Below, in pieces: positions 10,038 to 51,160 of a stretch of DNA of 64,000 nt (positions are counted from its first letter, which is position 1; every line of letters starts with the position of its first letter). Position numbers and translations under genes: made by a program. The notes under the pieces were generated by a model that was not told the origin of the DNA, made no database searches, and saw only the letters and a list, made by a program, of their open reading frames with translations. The stretch is taken from NCBI RefSeq assembly GCF_900114835.1, contig NZ_FOUJ01000001.1, positions 248,001-312,000 on the forward strand. Direction: 5' to 3'. The DNA comes from Methanolobus profundi (lineage in GTDB: Archaea; Halobacteriota; Methanosarcinia; Methanosarcinales; Methanosarcinaceae).

Positions 10038-10416
10038 TTGTTTTTCACATCCCTTTCCTCAGTTGATATCAGATGCATTCCTGTAGGGTGCAGTGGTCGC
10101 ATGAGGATATAGTATGGTAATGCTGTACTTTTTCCAGCATTCTGTATTACTGGCCTATTAGTTGATGCTTATACATCTGCCCTTTTATTCAGGCTAAAAT
10201 AGCCGCATTTTGCAGTCTGAAGTGAGATATGCCTTTCAGCAGACTTGTGTATGCGCCGGTAAGCATGTATGAATACGGTGTTTTATGAATATTTCATACA
10301 TTTATGAATGGGTATTTTTGCCTCATTCTATACCTATTTATCAAAAAATGGTCCATTCTTAAAAAAGAAACATGAGCTATGATGGTCGACCTGTGTCGGT
10401 CTCAGGAAGGTTAATT
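10038..10416. promoter_or_regulatory. Divergent promoter region of sulfur-carrier and activating-enzyme genes
   Basis: The gap has no gene. An A/T-rich part near 10285-10345 contains the palindrome ATGAATATTTCAT (about 10285-10297) and further TATTTAT-like boxes that could serve the plus-strand gene. No other structure stands out. Confidence 0.35.
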
Positions 10417-11416: not shown

Positions 11417-12964
11417 ATGACCAATAATTCCACAAGTCCCACAGGTAACATCTCATGGATAGACAGCACCTTAAAAGAAACCTCGGACTTCTTCTCTGCT
11501 CATTATTCTATTCTATCTATAGAAAATATTAGTCTTGGAATTGGAATTATTGCAATATTAGTTGCATTTTACATTTATCTAAAACAAAAAAAGTCAAGTG
11601 AAAAAGGCCATTCAGAACTTCTCTCTAATCAAGAAAAAATGCTTGAAAAATTCGATTCCATTAAACTATTCCCTAACTCTCCAATTTCCAATATTGTTGA
11701 TTTCTTCTTGGAATTTGATGATGATCACAAAAAAGACCTTTTTGAGTCTGCAATGAAGTTCCGAGATGAATACAAGCCACTTGAGGCTTTAAAAAGATTC
11801 AATCAACTTTTAGATCAGGAACTAACAGACAGTGAAAAAATCTCACTTTTTGTAAATATTGGAAATACTAATCTTTTGATTGGAGATTACGATGAAGCCA
11901 TTAGCAAGTACAATAAAGCTCTTAAGATTGCTGAACAAGCAAATGATATTCGGTCAAAAGGAGTGGCATTAGGAAACATCGGATTGATATACGCTGATAA
12001 AGGGGATACTGAAAAAGCCTTAAAATGCCATCTTCAGTCCCTTAAGATTGCTCGAGAAATGGGATACAAGAAGGGAGAAGCAAACCAGCTGGGAAATATT
12101 GGTAATATATACAATGCCAAAGGCGATAATGAAAATGCATTGGACTATTATCAACAAGCCCTTAAGATTCATCGTGAGATAGGGCACAAGTCGAGAGTGG
12201 CAGGTAATTTAGGAAACATTGGGTTAGTATACAATAATAAAGGCGAATCTGAAAAAGCATTGGAACACTTAGAACAAGCCCTTGATATAGCTCATGAGAT
12301 TGGATTCAAATTAGGAGAGGCAAATCAATTAGCAAACATTGGGGTGCTATACTCTAAAAAAGAGGAATTTAAAAAAGCATTGGACTATCATCATAAAGCC
12401 CTCGAGATTCATCGTGATATTGGACACAAGTTGGGAGTAGCAGCTGATTTGGGTAATATTGGACTTATATATCGAGATAAAGGTGAATTAGAACAAGCCT
12501 TGACTTATCTATTTGAAGCCTTGGAAATTGATCGTGATATTGGATATAAATTGGGAGAAGCAAGTGATTTAGGGAATATTGGACTCGCATATAAAACTAA
12601 AGGAGAATTTGAAAATGCATTGGAATACTTAGAACAAGCTCTTAAGATTGATTGCGAGATTGGATACAAGTTGGGAGAAGCAAACCAACTGGGAAATATT
12701 GGTAACTTATATAGTGCCAAATATAATTTAAAACAAGCATTGAAGTATCACCATCAAGCTCTTGATATTGACCGTAAAATTGGATATAAGTTGGGAGAGG
12801 CAATCGATTTGAGGAATATTGGACTGATATATCATGGTGAAGGCCAACAGGAAAAAGCATTACATTACTTAGAAGAAGCCCAACAAATTTTTAATTCAAT
12901 AGGAGCATGTAATTTGGGAGATAAAGTACAAAAACACATTTTGGAAGTTATACATAATATCTAA
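11417..12964 (+). CDS. Membrane-anchored TPR repeat protein, copy 1
   Basis: The start at ATG 11417 (MTNNSTSPTGNIS) is chosen because the neighbouring paralogue aligns there and a TATA box lies about 27 bases upstream; this gives 515 residues. One hydrophobic helix lies at about residues 38-58 (LGIGIIAILVAFYIYLK), then a linker and about nine 40-residue TPR units, each with a GNIG-x2-Y-x3-G core and ALxxHxxALxIxREIG. TPR arrays bind other proteins; no enzymatic domain is present. With its paralogue it may form a membrane scaffold. Confidence 0.88.
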   Translation: MTNNSTSPTGNISWIDSTLKETSDFFSAHYSILSIENISLGIGIIAILVAFYIYLKQKKSSEKGHSELLSNQEKMLEKFDSIKLFPNSPISNIVDFFLEFDDDHKKDLFESAMKFRDEYKPLEALKRFNQLLDQELTDSEKISLFVNIGNTNLLIGDYDEAISKYNKALKIAEQANDIRSKGVALGNIGLIYADKGDTEKALKCHLQSLKIAREMGYKKGEANQLGNIGNIYNAKGDNENALDYYQQALKIHREIGHKSRVAGNLGNIGLVYNNKGESEKALEHLEQALDIAHEIGFKLGEANQLANIGVLYSKKEEFKKALDYHHKALEIHRDIGHKLGVAADLGNIGLIYRDKGELEQALTYLFEALEIDRDIGYKLGEASDLGNIGLAYKTKGEFENALEYLEQALKIDCEIGYKLGEANQLGNIGNLYSAKYNLKQALKYHHQALDIDRKIGYKLGEAIDLRNIGLIYHGEGQQEKALHYLEEAQQIFNSIGACNLGDKVQKHILEVIHNI

Positions 12965-13067: not shown

Positions 13068-14606
13068 ATGGCTAATAATTCTATAAGTCCTACAGGTAAC
13101 ATCTCATGGATAGATACCGCCTTAAAAGAAAGCATGGACTTCTTATCTGTTCATTATTCCAACTTGCCAAAAGATGATTTATCAATTTTAATAGGAATTG
13201 TTGGACTTATCATAGCATTTATTTCGATCTGGTATGCATTTCATTCTTCTCGGAAACAAGATGACACAAATAAAGAAATTCTTGATAAAATAGATTCCAT
13301 TAAACCATTCGATAAATCTCCTATTTCTAATATTGTTGATTTTTTCCCAGAATTTGATGATGATTACAAAAGAGATATCTTTGAGTCTGCAATGAAGTTT
13401 CGTGATGAATATATGCCACATGAGGCACTAAAAAGATTCAGCCTTCTTATAAATCAGAAACTAACAGACTATGAAAAAATAGCACTTTTTGTAGATATTG
13501 GAAATACTAATCTTTTGATAGGTGATTATGATGAGGCTATTAGCAAGTACAAGAAAGCTCTCATGATTGCTGAACAAGCAAATGATATTCAGGCAAAAGG
13601 AGCAACATTAGGAAATGTCGGACTAATATATGCAGATAAAGGCGATACTGAAAAATCCTTGAAATATCAACTGCAATCTCTTGCTATTGCTCGTGAAATT
13701 GGAGACAAAAGGGGGGAATCAAGTGCTTTGGGAAATATTGGACTGATATACAGTGACAAAGGCGATACTAATGAAGCCTTACAATATCAACTTCAATCCC
13801 TTGCTATTGCTCGCGAAATTGGATTCAAGGTGGTAGAAGCAAGTGCTTTGGGAAATATTGGACTGATATACAGTGACAAAGGCGATACTGAAAAATCCTT
13901 GAAATATCATCTGCAATCCCTTGCTATTGCTTGCGAAATTGGATACAAGGTAGTAGAAGCAAACCAATTGGGAAGTATTGGACTAATCTACAGAAATAAA
14001 GGCGATAATAGCAAAGCCTTGCAATCTCATCTACAATCCCTTGAGATACATCGTGAAATTGGGTACAAGGTAGGGGAATCAATTGAGTTGGGAAATATTG
14101 GGCTGGTATACTTAAATAACGGCGAATTGGAAAATGCCTTGAACCACTTTGAACAAGCTCTTGATATTGCTAGTGAAATTGAATATAAGTTGGGACGAGC
14201 AAATCAATTGGGAAATATTGGAGTGATATGCTTTAGTAAAGGCGAAATGGAAAAATCCTTGCAATATTATCATCAATCCCTTAGTATTGCTCACGAAATA
14301 GGATATAAGAAGGGAGAAGCAAGTGCTTTGACAAATATTGGTACGATATATGTTGGCAAAGATGATGCTGATAATGCCTTGCACTGCTTCGAACAAGCCC
14401 TTGATATTCATCGCGAAATAGGATATAAGAAGGGAGAAGCAAGCGATTGGGCAAATATTGGACTTATATTTGCTGGAAAAGGCGAACTAGAAAAAGCATT
14501 ACAATACTTAGAAGAAGCAAAACTTATCTTTGAATCAATTGGAGCTTCTAATCTAGCAGAGCAAACACATCGTAATATATTAGTCATCAAAACTGATATG
14601 AAATAA
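13068..14606 (+). CDS. Membrane-anchored TPR repeat protein, copy 2
   Basis: This 512-residue paralogue of the preceding gene has the same order: a conserved start (SPTGNISWID), one transmembrane helix (about residues 42-62), a conserved block (KSPISNIVDFFPEFDDDYKR) and about nine TPR units. The N-terminal 180 residues are much closer between the copies than the repeats, where unit order has drifted and some neighbouring units (GNIGLIYSDKGDT, twice) look recently duplicated within the gene. The function is unknown; protein-protein interaction is expected. Confidence 0.88.
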   Translation: MANNSISPTGNISWIDTALKESMDFLSVHYSNLPKDDLSILIGIVGLIIAFISIWYAFHSSRKQDDTNKEILDKIDSIKPFDKSPISNIVDFFPEFDDDYKRDIFESAMKFRDEYMPHEALKRFSLLINQKLTDYEKIALFVDIGNTNLLIGDYDEAISKYKKALMIAEQANDIQAKGATLGNVGLIYADKGDTEKSLKYQLQSLAIAREIGDKRGESSALGNIGLIYSDKGDTNEALQYQLQSLAIAREIGFKVVEASALGNIGLIYSDKGDTEKSLKYHLQSLAIACEIGYKVVEANQLGSIGLIYRNKGDNSKALQSHLQSLEIHREIGYKVGESIELGNIGLVYLNNGELENALNHFEQALDIASEIEYKLGRANQLGNIGVICFSKGEMEKSLQYYHQSLSIAHEIGYKKGEASALTNIGTIYVGKDDADNALHCFEQALDIHREIGYKKGEASDWANIGLIFAGKGELEKALQYLEEAKLIFESIGASNLAEQTHRNILVIKTDMK

Positions 14607-16692: not shown

Positions 16693-17004
16693 CGTATCGG
16701 CATTTCACCTACATAGTATGCAAAAAACTATATTCTTTTTAATATCTACTTTTTATATTCTATTACTAGTAATATACTTTGTTGGCTGCTTGTTATTTGT
16801 CATTGGGGATGCAGGATGTTTGAGACTCAGGTGGTGTTCCAAGTTGAAATAAAAATATGACATATCTGGCCAATTTTAATGTATGTCTTACTTATTCATG
16901 TATATCATACTATAATCATACTAGTATGATTTTATCGTGTCCGGTTGTATGATGAAAACATATATCTAATATTCAATATGAATCATGTAGTGGGTGTGTG
17001 AAAT
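16693..17004 (+). promoter_or_regulatory. Upstream region of tspO-like gene with CATACTAGTATG palindrome
   Basis: This A/T-rich gap carries ATCATACTA at 16904-16912 and again within the perfect 16-base palindrome ATCATACTAGTATGAT at 16915-16930. The core CATACTAGTATG recurs at 51149-51160, and a close relative stands before the RHH gene (40750-40763). It is probably an operator. No gene is seen in the gap. Confidence 0.5.
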
Positions 17005-36230: not shown

Positions 36231-36733
36231 GGTCTGTGTGTAGTATATATTAAAATATCTATCTCTAATTATAGCTATTATTTTATAGTTATTATTTATT
36301 GTATATTTATGTGCAATTTTTGTTGATGCTGTTTTTCTTTTGCTGGTTTGCAGATATTTATGTGTGTATCTTGTCAGCATTTAATAGAAACCCATTAGCA
36401 TTATTTTGGTATCTATCGGGTGTGTGATGTTAAAAGGAATGTACTATGCGTTATTTAATCTGGTGGGTGATGGTTGTGCTACGTATCTGATTCGTATGAT
36501 TGCATACGTTTTCATACGTATGATATTGCATGAAATTGTGTTGTGGTGTAGTTATGGCGTAGTATTACTAATTATGTACAGGTGTATGGTTGTTATGTTG
36601 TTTATGTTCACGAAAGGGCTCTGTCAATATTGTTGCTCATGTTTTTGTAATTGCACGACAGCACATACTTATTATATACCACTTTCTCTATTACGTATAG
36701 TAGCTTAAGTATAGCAGTAAACGAGGTTTTCTA
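36231..36733 (+). promoter_or_regulatory. Divergent gap upstream of ilvD with a CATACG/CGTATG array
   Basis: No real gene is seen in these 500 bases. CGTATG (36493-36498), CATACG (36503-36508) and the palindrome CATACGTATG (36513-36522) repeat at 10-base intervals, one helical turn. A CTTATTATATAC box near 36668-36679 probably serves ilvD, whose GAGGT ribosome site lies at 36723-36727. Confidence 0.45.
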
Positions 36734-38447: not shown

Positions 38448-38470
38448 ATCGCTTATATGCAATAAGCGAT
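38448..38470. promoter_or_regulatory. Perfect inverted repeat before the small zinc-protein gene
   Basis: ATCGCTTAT (38448-38456) and ATAAGCGAT (38462-38470) form a perfect 9-base inverted repeat with a 5-base spacer, starting 4 bases after the ilvD terminator and ending 35 bases before the next start codon. It may be an operator or a second hairpin. Confidence 0.4.
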
Positions 38471-38504
38471 GGTTATTTTAATTGTATTGACTGAGTATTA
38501 TTCA

Positions 38505-38681
38505 ATGGAAAGAGCTGGTATTTGTCCTATATGCGGTTCAGTATCAAAACTGAACACGTGTGCTATATGTGGAAGGCTTGTCTGCAATCGGTGCTATGAC
38601 CATTCAAGAAGTGTTTGCATCCAGTGCTCTCCTGGGAATATACTTTCGGAAATGTCTACGGAAAGAACTGGATTGGTCTGA
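38505..38681 (+). CDS. Small treble-clef-like zinc protein
   Basis: This 58-residue protein (start at MERAGICPICGS; an upstream ATG falls inside an inverted repeat) carries four CxxC-type knuckles: CPIC, CAIC, CNRC and CIQC, with an intervening His. The arrangement C-x2-C...C-x2-C...C-x2-C.H..C-x2-C fits a two-zinc B-box or HIT-like finger. It would bind protein or nucleic acid. Its function is unknown. Its stop lies one base before the end of the convergent RHH gene. Confidence 0.7.
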   Translation: MERAGICPICGSVSKLNTCAICGRLVCNRCYDHSRSVCIQCSPGNILSEMSTERTGLV

Positions 38682-38682
38682 T

Positions 38683-40713
38683 CTATTTGAGCCTGTGAAG
38701 TTGTTCCACTCCATTCTCCTGTTTGAGAACGAGAACTTCCTTTGAAACAAGTTCTTGTATCTTCCTGTCTATCTCATCCTGGCTGAACTGTCGTGATACC
38801 AGGCTTTTGATGATCTCCTTTTTCACCTTTGCACCACGTGGCATATACATCAGTATGTTAGTTTCAAGCTTGTCTGGCTTTTCTCCTGTTCCTTGTTCTC
38901 TTGCAGGTGCAGGTGGTGATGCAACTGGTTGTTGTGTGGTTTGAGTTTCGGGTCTGCTCTCTATTCCACTTCCCATTGAAGGTGGGATCTCTCCCATATT
39001 GGGTGGTTGTTGTGATCCTGGTGCAGCAAATGGTGGAACTCCTTCAGGTGGCTTCAGCTCTGGCAGTGTGAATGCTGGTGCTTCTTCTGTCTGCTCCGGT
39101 GGCTTTAGTTCTGGCATTGCAAATGCTGGTATTTCTGTCCCTTGTTCTGGTGGCTTTAGATCCGGCATTGTGAATGCTGGTACTTCTGTTGCCTGTTCCG
39201 GTGGCTTTAGTTCTGGCATTGCAAATGCTGGTATTTCTGTCCCTTGTTCTGGTGGCTTCAGCTCTGGCATTTCAAATGCTGGTATTTCTGTTGCCTGTTC
39301 CGGTGGCTTTAGTTCTGGCATTGCAAATGCTGGTATTTCTGTTGCCTGTTCTGGTGGTTTGAGCTCTGGCATTTCAAATTCTGGTACTTCAGTTGCCTGT
39401 TCCGGTGGTTTGAGCTCTGGCATTTCAAATGCTGGTACTTCTGCTTCTTGTTCCGGTGGCTTCAGCTCTGGCATTGCAAATGCTGGTATTTCTGTCCCTT
39501 GTTCTGGTGGCTTTAGATCCGGCATTGTGAATGCTGGTATTTCTGTCCCTTGTTCCTGTGGCTTCAGCTCTGGCATTTCAAATTCTGGTACTTCAGTTGC
39601 CTGTTCTGGTGGCTTCAGTTCTGGCATTTCAAATCCCGGTACTTCAGTTGCCTGTTCTGGTGGCTTCAGTTCTGGCATTTCAAATCCCGGTACTTCAGTT
39701 GCCTGTTCTGGTGGTTTGAGCTCTGGCATTTCAAATGCTGGTACTTCAGTTGCCTGTTCTGGTAGCTTCAGTTCTGGCATTTCAAATCCCGGTACTTCTG
39801 TTTCCTTTACTGGTGGCTTCAGTTCTGGCATTTCAAATTCTGGTACTTCAGTTGCCTGTTCTGGTGGTTTGAGCTCTGGCATTTCAAATGCTGGTACTTC
39901 AGTTGCCTGTTCTGGTAGCTTCAGTTCTGGCATTTCAAATCCCGGTACTTCTGTTTCCTTTACTGGTGGCTTCAGTTCTGGCATTTCAAATTCTGGTACT
40001 TCAGTTGCCTGTTCTGGTGGTTTGAGCTCTGGCATTTCAAATGCTGGTACTTCTGTCTCTTGTTCCGGTGGCTTCAGCTCTGGCATTTCAAATTCTGGTA
40101 CTTCTGTTGCTTGTGTTATCTCTTCAGTTTCATTTGTTCCGGCCTTTTCTGCCACGAGCTCAGAAAGTTTCATCTCATGCGCTGTTTCTTCCTGTGTTGC
40201 TGGACCTGTTTCTTTTATTCCGCTCTCTATTTCTGCGGCTATAGTTGTTTTTTCCAGAGGTGCTATTGGTTCTATTGATACAGGTCCTATTGTATGTGTG
40301 TCCTCTGTCATGCCCGGGGTTGTGATCTCTGTAACTTCATCTAGTTCCCCTGTATCTGCATCAGTGAGGTCTTCTGTTTCTTCCATTTCGGGAAGTATTG
40401 TATCTATCAGGGGTGTCTCTTCTGGTGTATTTGCTAAAGTTTCGGGTATGCTCTGTCTACTCTGTAAGTTCCCGATCATGTCGTTTATGCCTGAGAAATT
40501 CTTCTCTATCAGCTCTAATCTGCCTGACATTGCAGTGACCTCCTCACGAAGGATACTGAATCTTTCTGTCCATGGTATTATCTCATCTTGTGGGGCATTG
40601 TCTAACATGTCCAGCTCCCTTTCAATGAGTTTTCTGATGAATAGGCTCTTGTTCTCGATAACTTCCAGTTTATCAAACAGTTCATCAGACATGCTGATAG
40701 TAAGTCTCTTCAT
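38683..40713 (-). CDS. Ribbon-helix-helix protein with 21 tandem 17-residue repeats
   Basis: This 676-residue protein starts with a ribbon-helix-helix DNA-binding domain (KRLTISMSDELFDKLEVIEN, helices to about residue 36). A helical dimer-like segment and an acidic Thr/Glu-rich stretch follow to about residue 201. Exactly 21 tandem copies of a 17-residue unit of the form ATEVPxFEMPELKPPEQ come next (357 residues). A Gln/Pro-rich linker leads to a C-terminal winged-helix-like domain (NILMYMPRGAKVKKEIIKSL to the end). The domain pairing suggests a DNA-bound architectural or regulatory factor with an extended spacer. Palindromes directly upstream look like its own operators. Confidence 0.85.
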   Translation of the reverse strand: MKRLTISMSDELFDKLEVIENKSLFIRKLIERELDMLDNAPQDEIIPWTERFSILREEVTAMSGRLELIEKNFSGINDMIGNLQSRQSIPETLANTPEETPLIDTILPEMEETEDLTDADTGELDEVTEITTPGMTEDTHTIGPVSIEPIAPLEKTTIAAEIESGIKETGPATQEETAHEMKLSELVAEKAGTNETEEITQATEVPEFEMPELKPPEQETEVPAFEMPELKPPEQATEVPEFEMPELKPPVKETEVPGFEMPELKLPEQATEVPAFEMPELKPPEQATEVPEFEMPELKPPVKETEVPGFEMPELKLPEQATEVPAFEMPELKPPEQATEVPGFEMPELKPPEQATEVPGFEMPELKPPEQATEVPEFEMPELKPQEQGTEIPAFTMPDLKPPEQGTEIPAFAMPELKPPEQEAEVPAFEMPELKPPEQATEVPEFEMPELKPPEQATEIPAFAMPELKPPEQATEIPAFEMPELKPPEQGTEIPAFAMPELKPPEQATEVPAFTMPDLKPPEQGTEIPAFAMPELKPPEQTEEAPAFTLPELKPPEGVPPFAAPGSQQPPNMGEIPPSMGSGIESRPETQTTQQPVASPPAPAREQGTGEKPDKLETNILMYMPRGAKVKKEIIKSLVSRQFSQDEIDRKIQELVSKEVLVLKQENGVEQLHRLK
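39040..40110 (-). repeat. Coding tandem repeat, 21 x 51 bp
   Basis: The array is 1,071 bases, exactly 21 units of 51 bases, all in frame. Most units differ only at the residue after Pro (Ala, Gly or Glu), at E/A/T before Met, and at the linker pair EQ/VK. Units 3-5 and 6-8 form a duplicated block of three (153 bases), showing recent expansion by unequal exchange or slippage. There are no spacers between units. Confidence 0.95.
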
Positions 40714-40749
40714 AGTGATCTCTCTCTCTATTGTTCATTTGTGTAGAAT

Positions 40750-40777
40750 CATACTAGTGTATGCATGTATCATACAT
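40750..40777 (-). promoter_or_regulatory. Paired palindromes at the RHH-gene promoter
   Basis: CATAC-TAGT-GTATG (40750-40763) and ATGTAT-C-ATACAT (40765-40777) lie side by side, 37-64 bases upstream of the RHH start, next to a TATATATG box read on the minus strand. Tandem short palindromes over a promoter are typical RHH operators. The first is one base-insertion away from CATACTAGTATG seen twice elsewhere in the window. Confidence 0.55.
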
Positions 40778-40916
40778 ATATAATTAATGGAATTATATTT
40801 TTGAACTTATGTTGTTTATGTAATATGTATGATTTGGATCTTTCAGCAAAGCTACCGCTATTGGCTGATCGGTCAGCAGCTACAAAATAATAAATAAAAA
40901 AGATGTGAACAAGCGT

Positions 40917-41690
40917 TCACATTGACTTTTTACACTCAGGACATGCTTTGCCCTTTGTTGTCTGTATGAATGAGTGTTTTGGTGTTATGCATTTGCATAG
41001 CGGGCATAGTGAATTGTTCTTGAATATCTTTTCTACTGACTGAAGATCGGTGTCGTAGATGTGTGTATCCCATCCGGTAGCTATCAGTGATTCGATCTCA
41101 TAATGCAGGTCCTGTTCTCTGAATACCTTTTTGAACCCTTCTACTATGGCTGGTATATTAGCAGGGAATCCGCCAAACGCATCCCATGAGCGGTATAGTA
41201 GGTATATCCTTACCTGTGTCTCGTTCAGGAGCTCTACCTTATATGCTATCCAGCAGGGCTGATCCTCGAATTTAGGTATGTGTACCTCATTCTCCCATAG
41301 CACGCCAACATGTCTTCTGGATCCGGGACGCAGGTTACTTACATTTGCATGTAGTGTATTGTATGCTGTCTCTCCGTATCTGAAAAGCTGCTTTGCATAA
41401 CAGTAGTCGAATTTCCTCTTATCGTCATCTGTGAGTGAAACATACCATTCGGCATACTCTTCTGTAAGCTCTTCTTTGTATTTCTTTATGAGATTCTCTC
41501 CGAAAGGTACAGCGGGGCTGACCTGTCTCTCATTGACGTCCTTGATGTATATGGTTGCATGCACCCTTTTTGTCTTTGTCTTATAGTCCGGTTCATGCTC
41601 CTCCCCTTTCTCATATATCTCATGGATCAATTGGGACCATGCAGAGGCAATGGTATTTGCTTTTATTAATACGGCTTCCATGTCGTTCAT
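40917..41690 (-). CDS. Thymidylate-synthase-like protein with C-terminal zinc ribbon
   Basis: This 257-residue protein shows the thymidylate synthase/dCMP hydroxymethylase core: QPCWIAYKVELL matches the catalytic PC(H)xxxQFxV strand with its nucleophilic Cys, and LLYRSWDAFGGFPANIPAI matches the RS.D....PxNI phosphate and nucleobase site. Archaeal members of the family are divergent like this. From about residue 232 a zinc ribbon follows (CPLCKC, then KACPECKK), which ordinary enzymes of the family lack. It probably methylates or hydroxymethylates dUMP or a related nucleotide with a methanopterin-type C1 donor; this is inferred. Confidence 0.7.
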   Translation of the reverse strand: MNDMEAVLIKANTIASAWSQLIHEIYEKGEEHEPDYKTKTKRVHATIYIKDVNERQVSPAVPFGENLIKKYKEELTEEYAEWYVSLTDDDKRKFDYCYAKQLFRYGETAYNTLHANVSNLRPGSRRHVGVLWENEVHIPKFEDQPCWIAYKVELLNETQVRIYLLYRSWDAFGGFPANIPAIVEGFKKVFREQDLHYEIESLIATGWDTHIYDTDLQSVEKIFKNNSLCPLCKCITPKHSFIQTTKGKACPECKKSM

Positions 41691-44208: not shown

Positions 44209-44864
44209 TGTTCTTGTAAGGGTGCCTGCTTTTCAGCAGCAACTTTTTAAGTATATATTTTATTATATACTTTTCATGATGCTTTTTAAATAATAGATTT
44301 TACATTATGTATTATATTGTATAATGTTTTTTATATGCTTTCTTGTATTATGCAGAGTTCGTAGGGTCATAGTAAAAGATGGCCAGCAGCCGGACTTTGA
44401 TGGATTATTTCCTATCTCATTATATTGTTTGTTTTAACAGTTGTCCTATAATGTAGGATTTGTGCAACTTTATAGAAAAAAGTAGCTTGTTAATTTTATA
44501 GTTTTTTGTTATGATTGTGTAATACGGGTAATACACTTTCTTTTTAGAATATGTGAACTACAGTAAAGGGTACTACTCACATTGAAACTTAATTGTTGGT
44601 AAAAATGATGTTAAAAGTGGAGTGGAGTATGAGCGGGTTGGGGAGTGGGGGTTATTGTCAAAAAGAGGATAACCCGCTCATCTAAATGCTAGTATGAACT
44701 CTATGGTATATATACGTTGTGCTCATTATCATCATCATTATGAGGTGATTTTATGAAAACAATCCCTTGCATGCGGTATTGACTATTTTTAATTGTGATC
44801 GGACTTATGATATCATAGAAAACTGCTAAATACCTTGGCTCCCACTTTCTGTCTTAGTGATAAT
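44209..44864 (+). promoter_or_regulatory. Gene-free gap with a long inverted repeat and a micro-ORF
   Basis: The first part is A/T-rich and unremarkable. ATGAGCGGGTT (44629-44639) and AACCCGCTCAT (44671-44681) form a perfect 11-base inverted repeat around a G-rich 31-base loop. A GGTATATATACG box at about 44705-44716 lies next, then GAGGTGAT (44742-44749) and a nine-codon frame (44753-44782). The downstream RAM-domain gene starts at 44865. Confidence 0.5.
44753..44782 (+). CDS. Possible nine-codon leader peptide
   Basis: The frame reads MKTIPCMRY and stops. It is preceded by GAGGTGAT at the right distance, a better ribosome site than most genes of the window have, and lies about 40 bases after a TATA-like box. 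It may be a leader controlling the RAM-domain or topoisomerase genes, or chance. Confidence 0.3.
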   Translation: MKTIPCMRY

Positions 44865-51048: not shown

Positions 51049-51120
51049 GTTTCATCCTGTGAAGTTTCTTTTTTCTTTAAATTCTTTCCTTTTATATCTT
51101 CATATTTTTTATGATATTTT

Positions 51121-51160
51121 CATACACTATGCTATTTGCTGATTATGTCATACTAGTATG
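51121..51160 (+). promoter_or_regulatory. CATACTAGTATG palindrome upstream of a hypothetical gene
   Basis: A perfect 12-base palindrome CATACTAGTATG stands at 51149-51160, with CATACACTATG at 51121-51131. The same 12 bases form the centre of the palindrome before the TspO gene. Confidence 0.5.

Follow-up and report, generated by a model that had tools for sequence, protein, structure and literature searches.

The repeat protein encoded in the window (the whole stretch of Methanolobus profundi DNA analysed here, 64,000 nucleotides) is, in the reading that we favour and to which we give close to an even chance, a SegB-like, self-repressing binder of a cluster of DNA sites that carries a multivalent linker. 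This is a proposal made at the level of the sequence: sequence analysis yielded the domain architecture, a conserved operator, a cluster of sites and the constraint on a repeated motif, and from these we infer DNA binding, repression, a docking partner and an organising function. The RHH end of the protein would bind GTATGA half-sites, tightly at an operator of three half-sites over the TATA box of its own gene, which would be repressed, and more weakly at half-sites, single or in pairs, that lie between genes up to about 30 kb away. Through the half-site cluster, a single region of the chromosome would be loaded with many molecules of the protein. Each chain would present the motif F-x-M-P-E-L-K-P-P as many as about 20 times in its disordered linker, and this motif may dock a partner multivalently; the winged helix at the C terminus would cap the linker and make a second contact, either with protein or with DNA. 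A nucleoprotein scaffold would thereby form locally and serve either domain organisation or segregation. Chromosome organisation and segregation in polyploid euryarchaeal methanogens are poorly known. In Methanolobus, the gene belongs to the single-copy core, and a specific DNA site, a site map and a docking peptide can be predicted for it.

The original prediction placed an RHH domain at the N terminus and a winged-helix-like fold at the C terminus, and both assignments were confirmed (Table 1). Pfam RHH_1 matches five of 13 family N-termini (best E 2.1e-4), and the family N terminus aligns with RHH_1 members (proteins of the same order) at 73% in hhalign; the assignment rests on these relatives, the N terminus of the window protein by itself giving no Pfam RHH_1 match. 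Residues M1, L4, I6, D10, L12, L16, E31 and L34 are invariant in the family. The AlphaFold2 monomer has low confidence for residues 1-10 (59) and shows a helix there in place of the RHH strand. The helix predicted for residues 48-86 is possibly a coiled coil. The C terminus is confidently predicted to be a winged helix, without a specific relative: Foldseek matched it to MecI, BlaI, TubR and HlyU-type wHTH domains with a probability of about 1.0, none of these matches reaching E < 0.001. Its recognition helix has a net charge of -2 (acidic), and the helix before that has +3. A likeness of the C terminus to MCM5-C was discarded (E 0.008-0.016, under the cut-off), and Pfam and NCBIfam gave no match to a ParB-type domain in the protein.

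Searches with profiles of the N terminus (A1) and the C terminus (A2) identified one syntenic copy of the gene in each of the 27 Methanolobus genomes and orthologues, which are shorter there, in seven further genera of the Methanosarcinaceae. The family profiles had no match at E <= 0.001 in g23, the largest genus of the Methanosarcinaceae, and the A2 profile had none outside the Methanosarcinaceae at the same threshold. Both end domains are strongly conserved across the orthologues and the linker is variable, with a length of about 45 to 570 residues; the shortest linkers belong to g20, where the proteins have 184-189 amino acids. The gene is part of a block with the conserved order rfcL, mtxX, thymidylate-synthase-like gene, RHH/winged-helix gene, gene for a 70-aa zinc-finger protein (convergent), ilvD and radical-SAM gene, which is common to Methanolobus and the other family genera read. 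In other genera, mtrA-/mtrH-like genes (of the mtxA/mtxH kind) replace the thymidylate-synthase-like gene, which g21 retains. MtxX is a methanogenesis marker to which no function is assigned and which is sometimes encoded in a single unit with mtxA and mtxH (PMC3087415).

Two of these neighbours deserve a note. The thymidylate-synthase-like protein (40917-41690, minus strand) has a C-terminal zinc-ribbon-like stretch and is under the methanogen ThyA cut-off (75.7 versus 174.6 bits). The 70-aa zinc-finger protein (38469-38681, plus strand; Prok-RING_2, E 3.6e-5) is conserved and its gene convergent with the RHH/winged-helix gene wherever it was found; it is a possible functional neighbour.

Table 1. 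Features of the RHH/winged-helix gene and of the predicted DNA sites around it (positions in the window; aa, amino acid position in the protein).
Feature	Position	Strand	Details
Whole ORF	38683..40713	-	676 aa, ATG start; RHH end, helix, array-bearing disordered linker, winged helix
RHH-type domain, aa 1-40 (MKRLTISMSDELFDKLEVIENKSLFIRKLIERELDMLDNA)	40594..40713	-	Pfam RHH_1 in relatives; hhalign 73%
Predicted helix, aa 48-86	40456..40572	-	AlphaFold2; pLDDT 85-88 for aa 51-70
Array of 21 x 17-aa units, aa 203-559, 1,071 bp	39037..40107	-	consensus TE(V/I)PxFxMPELKPPEQx
Three-unit block of 153 bp in exact tandem duplicate (units 3-5 = units 6-8)	39700..40005	-	100% DNA identity
Predicted winged-helix domain, aa 612-676	38686..38880	-	AlphaFold2 pLDDT 92-95, H-E-H-H-E-E
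Predicted operator: half-sites TGTATGA (40776-40770), GCATACA (40764-40758), AGTATGA (40755-40749)	40746..40776	-	at most one mismatch in 27/27 Methanolobus
TATA-box-like TTATATA abutting operator	40777..40783	-	TATATA directly before operator invariant in genus
Satellite cluster between BrkB-family and TspO genes	16905..16965	.	four GTATGA/TCATAC half-sites and one-mismatch full site 16946-16964
Three half-sites, divergent ilvD/radical-SAM promoter region	36494..36523	.	full or one-mismatch sites there in L111, L112
Satellite site (TTTATGATATTTTCATACA at 51108) and half-sites	51106..51153	.	about 10 kb from gene
Satellite site TTTATGAATATTTCATACA at 10282	10267..10300	.	about 30 kb from gene

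The array had been described as 21 perfect-length units of 51 bp, all in frame and including a duplicated three-unit block, and TRF (39043-40114, period 51, 21.0 copies, 85% matches, 0% indels) together with an in-frame comparison of the units bears this out. It comprises 20 regular 17-aa units and a degenerate 21st (EEAPAFTLPELKPPEGV). Units 9 and 10 are also identical, the remaining unit pairs being mostly 67-98% identical, and the linker consists of 19% proline and 21% glutamate. The number of 21 units is the count in the present assembly, and the contigs of several drafts (G015, G009, G018, G020) break inside the array; in kind, the array is neither a chance product nor an assembly artefact, since single-contig Methanolobus genomes carry the same sort of array. 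A comparison of the repeat number across relatives showed that it varies: the arrays in the closed genomes of one Methanolobus subset are of a similar kind and number roughly 8 to 21 units, and in another subset (e.g., L018, L022-L025) the motif is left only as degenerate traces. Repeats of 17 amino acids with the core (F/I)-x-M-P-(E/D)-L-x-(P/T)-(P/T) were found in Methanolobus and in g24; g17 has a single related motif (LSFPELKIPPELL). One orthologue from g17 (L100 in G115, 643 aa) contains its own array of an unrelated 18-aa unit (SLPDPLDSPLISDSVISP-like) at the same linker position, and repeat growth in the linker therefore arose more than once. For the growth and turnover of tandem repeats, this conserved cellular gene provides a clean natural series.

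A 594-codon ORF with a TTG start runs antisense to the gene (38999-40783, plus strand) and spans the whole array and the N terminus. It was taken as spurious, because it has internal stops in relatives with a matching antisense strand, and it is probably a by-product of the 51-bp period. A DUF3855 match to the array was likewise not retained (E 9e-5, under the cut-off; low-complexity).

In the window array, which is contiguous and was analysed without motif selection, pN/pS is 0.06 in the F-x-MPELKPP core, delimited after the sequences were seen, and 0.48 in the rest of the unit. Core pN is lower than spacer pN in nine of ten arrays, most clearly in L001 and L019. The position-permutation value is below 0.05 for L001, L004, L011, L012 and L019 and not for L002, L003, L007, L008 and L016; the contrast between core and spacer is weak in L002, L003 and L007, and pN/pS is reversed in L016. 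Identity between species is 0.64 in the core (a value that is partly built in, the units having been found by a motif that holds part of the core) and 0.20 in the spacer; within arrays it is 0.74 and 0.51, respectively. We infer from this pattern that the core may be under selection as a short linear motif, with rapid turnover and homogenisation of the spacers. Since the core barely changes and recurs across species with differing spacers, the linker would be a multivalent docking array and not an inert spacer; we rate the chance that the repeats are a docking motif as slightly better than even. The earlier suggestion that the repeats could act as a spacer between two DNA-bound domains was, as regards an inert spacer, not supported, the core being much more constrained at the protein level than the rest of the unit. 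Two other readings of the repeat, as an FtsZ C-terminal peptide (IPAF) and as a MIM2-like motif, were rejected; IPAF occurs only in some species and lies outside the conserved core.

The same constraint bears on a two-headed bridge, in which the RHH domain and the winged helix would each hold DNA and the repeats would serve only as a stiff spacer with an array contour of about 110-127 nm. Such a protein would have a nucleic-acid-binding-type fold at either end, as is predicted here, and a long linker rich in proline and glutamate, and local clustering of its sites (see below) would be in line with bridging. A pure spacer would have no need of a near-invariant core, however. With its acidic recognition helix, the C terminus makes a poor candidate for canonical DNA binding, and a linker is almost absent from the orthologues of 184-189 aa. 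We consider the bridge improbable.

The DNA site that is proposed for the RHH end was deduced from the promoter of the gene. Promoter alignment showed TGTATG-N6/7-CATACA in all 27 Methanolobus genomes (24 exact, three with one mismatch) at about 40-76 bp before the start codon, and most of these promoters have a third half-site, 21 bp from the first. Conservation is 0.98-1.00 in the half-sites and 0.83 in the spacer, which is 6 or 7 bp long. Three half-sites in the same register are also present in g24 (L107, L108, L110, L033), where the promoter sequence is otherwise unrelated. With an operator profile, the own promoter ranked first in every one of the 27 genomes, with E from 1e-11 to 7e-4; four of the 27 operators found by the profile (those with 6-bp spacing) lay outside the training set, and nothing besides the own promoter was found under E 0.01 over those genomes. 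Predicted promoter elements of M. psychrophilus lie about 19-22 nt from the start sites (PMC5378194); by this spacing, the operator probably has the TATA box on one side and the start on the other, a placement that suggests repression. The promoter comparison thus predicts that the gene is autoregulated via the operator on its TATA box, and it is likely that the protein binds its own promoter. The gene hemA was dismissed as a second target: the exact site that recurs there in seven genomes lies in coding sequence and is conserved because the hemA protein is conserved.

The half-site is the same as that of a known RHH protein, the metal-dependent RHH_1 repressor NikR. Arg3 and Thr5 of NikR make base contacts, and the NikR strand MQRVTIT aligns in register with MKRLTIS of the repeat protein, R3 and T5 matching. 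The E. coli NikR, an RHH repressor, binds GTATGA-N16-TCATAC (PMC7055735). This half-site and the in-register strand make GTATGA a plausible half-site for the repeat protein. Homology to NikR is not significant (E 0.37), and the repeat protein differs from NikR in that no metal-binding domain was seen and in that the hexamers are spaced by 6/7 bp instead of the 16 bp of the E. coli nik operator. Covariation of strand and site was inconclusive, because g21 has the same MKRLTIS strand, yet the operator is absent from its promoter, and g17, with the differing strand MKELKIS, has 1.97 half-sites per kb in its small flanks.

Pure autoregulation, first suggested by the uniqueness of the full operator, was abandoned when a cluster of sites appeared at the level of half-sites and one-mismatch sites. 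The hexamer GTATGA had been set by the promoter operator before the cluster was looked at. Within 10 kb of the gene, it comes out on top among 2,080 hexamers. Its intergenic density near the gene is 2.51 per kb (-10 to 0 kb) and 2.80 per kb (0 to +10 kb), followed by 1.35 (-30 to -10 kb), 0.66 (+10 to +20 kb) and 2.05 (+20 to +30 kb); beyond 30 kb it is 0.62 and 0.84 per kb, and it is 0.43 per kb in a control set limited to 40 regions. Within 30 kb in the ten genomes, GTATGA is enriched 2.77-fold, and of the 90 hexamers of the same composition the next reaches 1.67, the median being 0.96. After masking of a conserved element that held one half-site, ten of ten genomes had 10-18 sites within 30 kb versus 4.3-6.9 expected, with a Poisson p per genome of 0.054 to 1.6e-6; these p-values are not independent, since the genomes are related and share intergenic ancestry. 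One-mismatch full sites within 60 kb occur at 19.3 per Mb in the ten genomes (own promoter excluded), compared with 1.2 per Mb in control regions and 6.7 per Mb for the reversed pattern. G000, a genome of 3.1 Mb, has 5 of its 14 one-mismatch full sites (7-bp spacing) within 51 kb near the gene. A satellite site at +23 to +27 kb, downstream of the gene, is present in eight of ten genomes, seven times between TspO and BrkB and in G024 in a neighbourhood of another type. Distances of 8, 10-11, 21 or 31 bp from one half-site to the next are frequent. The site cluster around the gene is likely to be real, and it also fits a chromosome-organising role. The conserved operator and the clustered half-sites uphold the original prediction of DNA-bound domains for the RHH end; for the winged-helix end, with its net acidic recognition helix, it is unproven.

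An ordinary local repressor could leave similar traces. It would repress its own transcription together with that of a few neighbouring genes (TspO, ilvD, the lrp/top6B region), the winged helix would dimerise, and the linker would be tolerated and grow by slippage. Its own promoter would be the best site, as observed, and many satellite sites are close to promoters, as a local regulon would have them; the half-site enrichment is greatest in tandem intergenic regions, which contain promoters (2.23 versus 0.57 per kb), and the wide range of orthologue linker lengths would agree with a tolerated linker. The half-sites adjoin many unrelated genes over about 50 kb, however, and the repeat core shows constraint within arrays and, unlike the spacers, turns up again from species to species. 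A local repressor is a possible explanation, but we consider it doubtful. Quite improbable is the binding of promoter and cluster sites by a different RHH or other regulator in place of the repeat protein: the sites are known here from sequence alone and the same genomes encode other RHH proteins, including a NikR-type protein, but the sites centre on the RHH/winged-helix gene, and the NikR-type protein of this genome has the strand RIGVS, not RLTIS.

The preferred reading takes SegB as its model. SegB has a long disordered part. It is the archaeal RHH partner of SegA in chromosome segregation of the Sulfolobales (PMC12284271, PMC5120986). Palindromes lie just before the SegB cassette, and ChIP gave 16 peaks over the surrounding 50 kb (PMC12284271). 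The repeat protein has in common with SegB that it is an archaeal RHH protein with a long disordered part, a self-operator and a cluster of sites, the last two here predicted, over tens of kb. Unlike SegB, it has the RHH domain at the N terminus, its site is TGTATGA instead of TCTAGA, its sites are mostly intergenic whereas those of SegB are mostly intragenic, and it contains a winged helix and tandem repeats, which are not described for SegB. The SegB cassette has segA upstream and overlapping, whereas the neighbour here is the thymidylate-synthase-like gene. No ParA-type P-loop protein was found within 60 kb of the gene in nine of ten genomes; the only ParA/SegA-type candidate within this distance is CooC-like and occurs in one genome. 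Profile searches against PDB chains, which were the whole comparison, gave no significant match and none named SegB. The protein is not filed as a member of the SegB family, and on the evidence of its sites and domains it would work like SegB. An organising or segregation role can be assigned tentatively, at somewhat less than even chances. No report of a SegB- or ParB-type centromere binder in Methanosarcinaceae was found in the literature searched. It is conceivable, and in our view rather unlikely, that the protein belongs to an undescribed archaeal centromere-like system of the Methanosarcinaceae, in which about 60 kb around the gene would be RHH-marked via scattered GTATGA half-sites, many copies of a partner would be recruited by the array of one short docking motif, and the repeat number would tune the valency.

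Other systems share parts of the architecture. AspA-ParB-ParA of pNOB8, an archaeal partition system, combines a DNA binder of the winged-helix type with an adaptor whose two domains are joined by a linker (PMC5120986). These are three separate proteins, unlike the one-chain protein here, and in Foldseek the C-terminal fold did not match AspA significantly (E 0.21). Among DNA-binding factors whose tails allow multivalent docking, the nearest precedent is ASCIZ, which binds DNA, carries many copies of one docking motif for LC8 in a disordered tail and is under feedback control (PMC5963919); the likeness is one of the way of working only, as ASCIZ is eukaryotic and unrelated in sequence. As to in-frame repeats in methane-cycling archaea, the closest parallel is offered by the aaTR proteins of Borgs, in which, as here, tandem repeats of perfect length give rise to disordered regions (PMC9879509). 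The Borg repeats are near-identical and spread over many unrelated, often extracellular proteins (PMC9879509), whereas the array described here lies in the chromosome of a cell, within a single core-locus gene that is conserved genus-wide, and its units are diverged but core-constrained.

Two further observations were made in the window. A 62-bp noncoding element between rfcL and an AsnC-domain gene (44621-44682; GATGAGCGGGTTATCCTCTTTTTGACAATAACCCCCACTCCCCAACCCGCTCATACTCCACT on the minus strand) is near-identical in every Methanolobus genome read, and the flanking intergenic DNA has diverged. The element contains an 11-bp hairpin (z -6.0) and has no match to Rfam at the gathering threshold. 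Its relatives adjoin rfcL in g21 and g24, and second, partly repeated copies were found in L236 and L248; it is possibly an RNA or a replication/segregation element. At 12130-12831 and 13638-14469, a neighbouring gene pair contains 120-bp (40-aa) repeats that are TPR-like by period and sequence.
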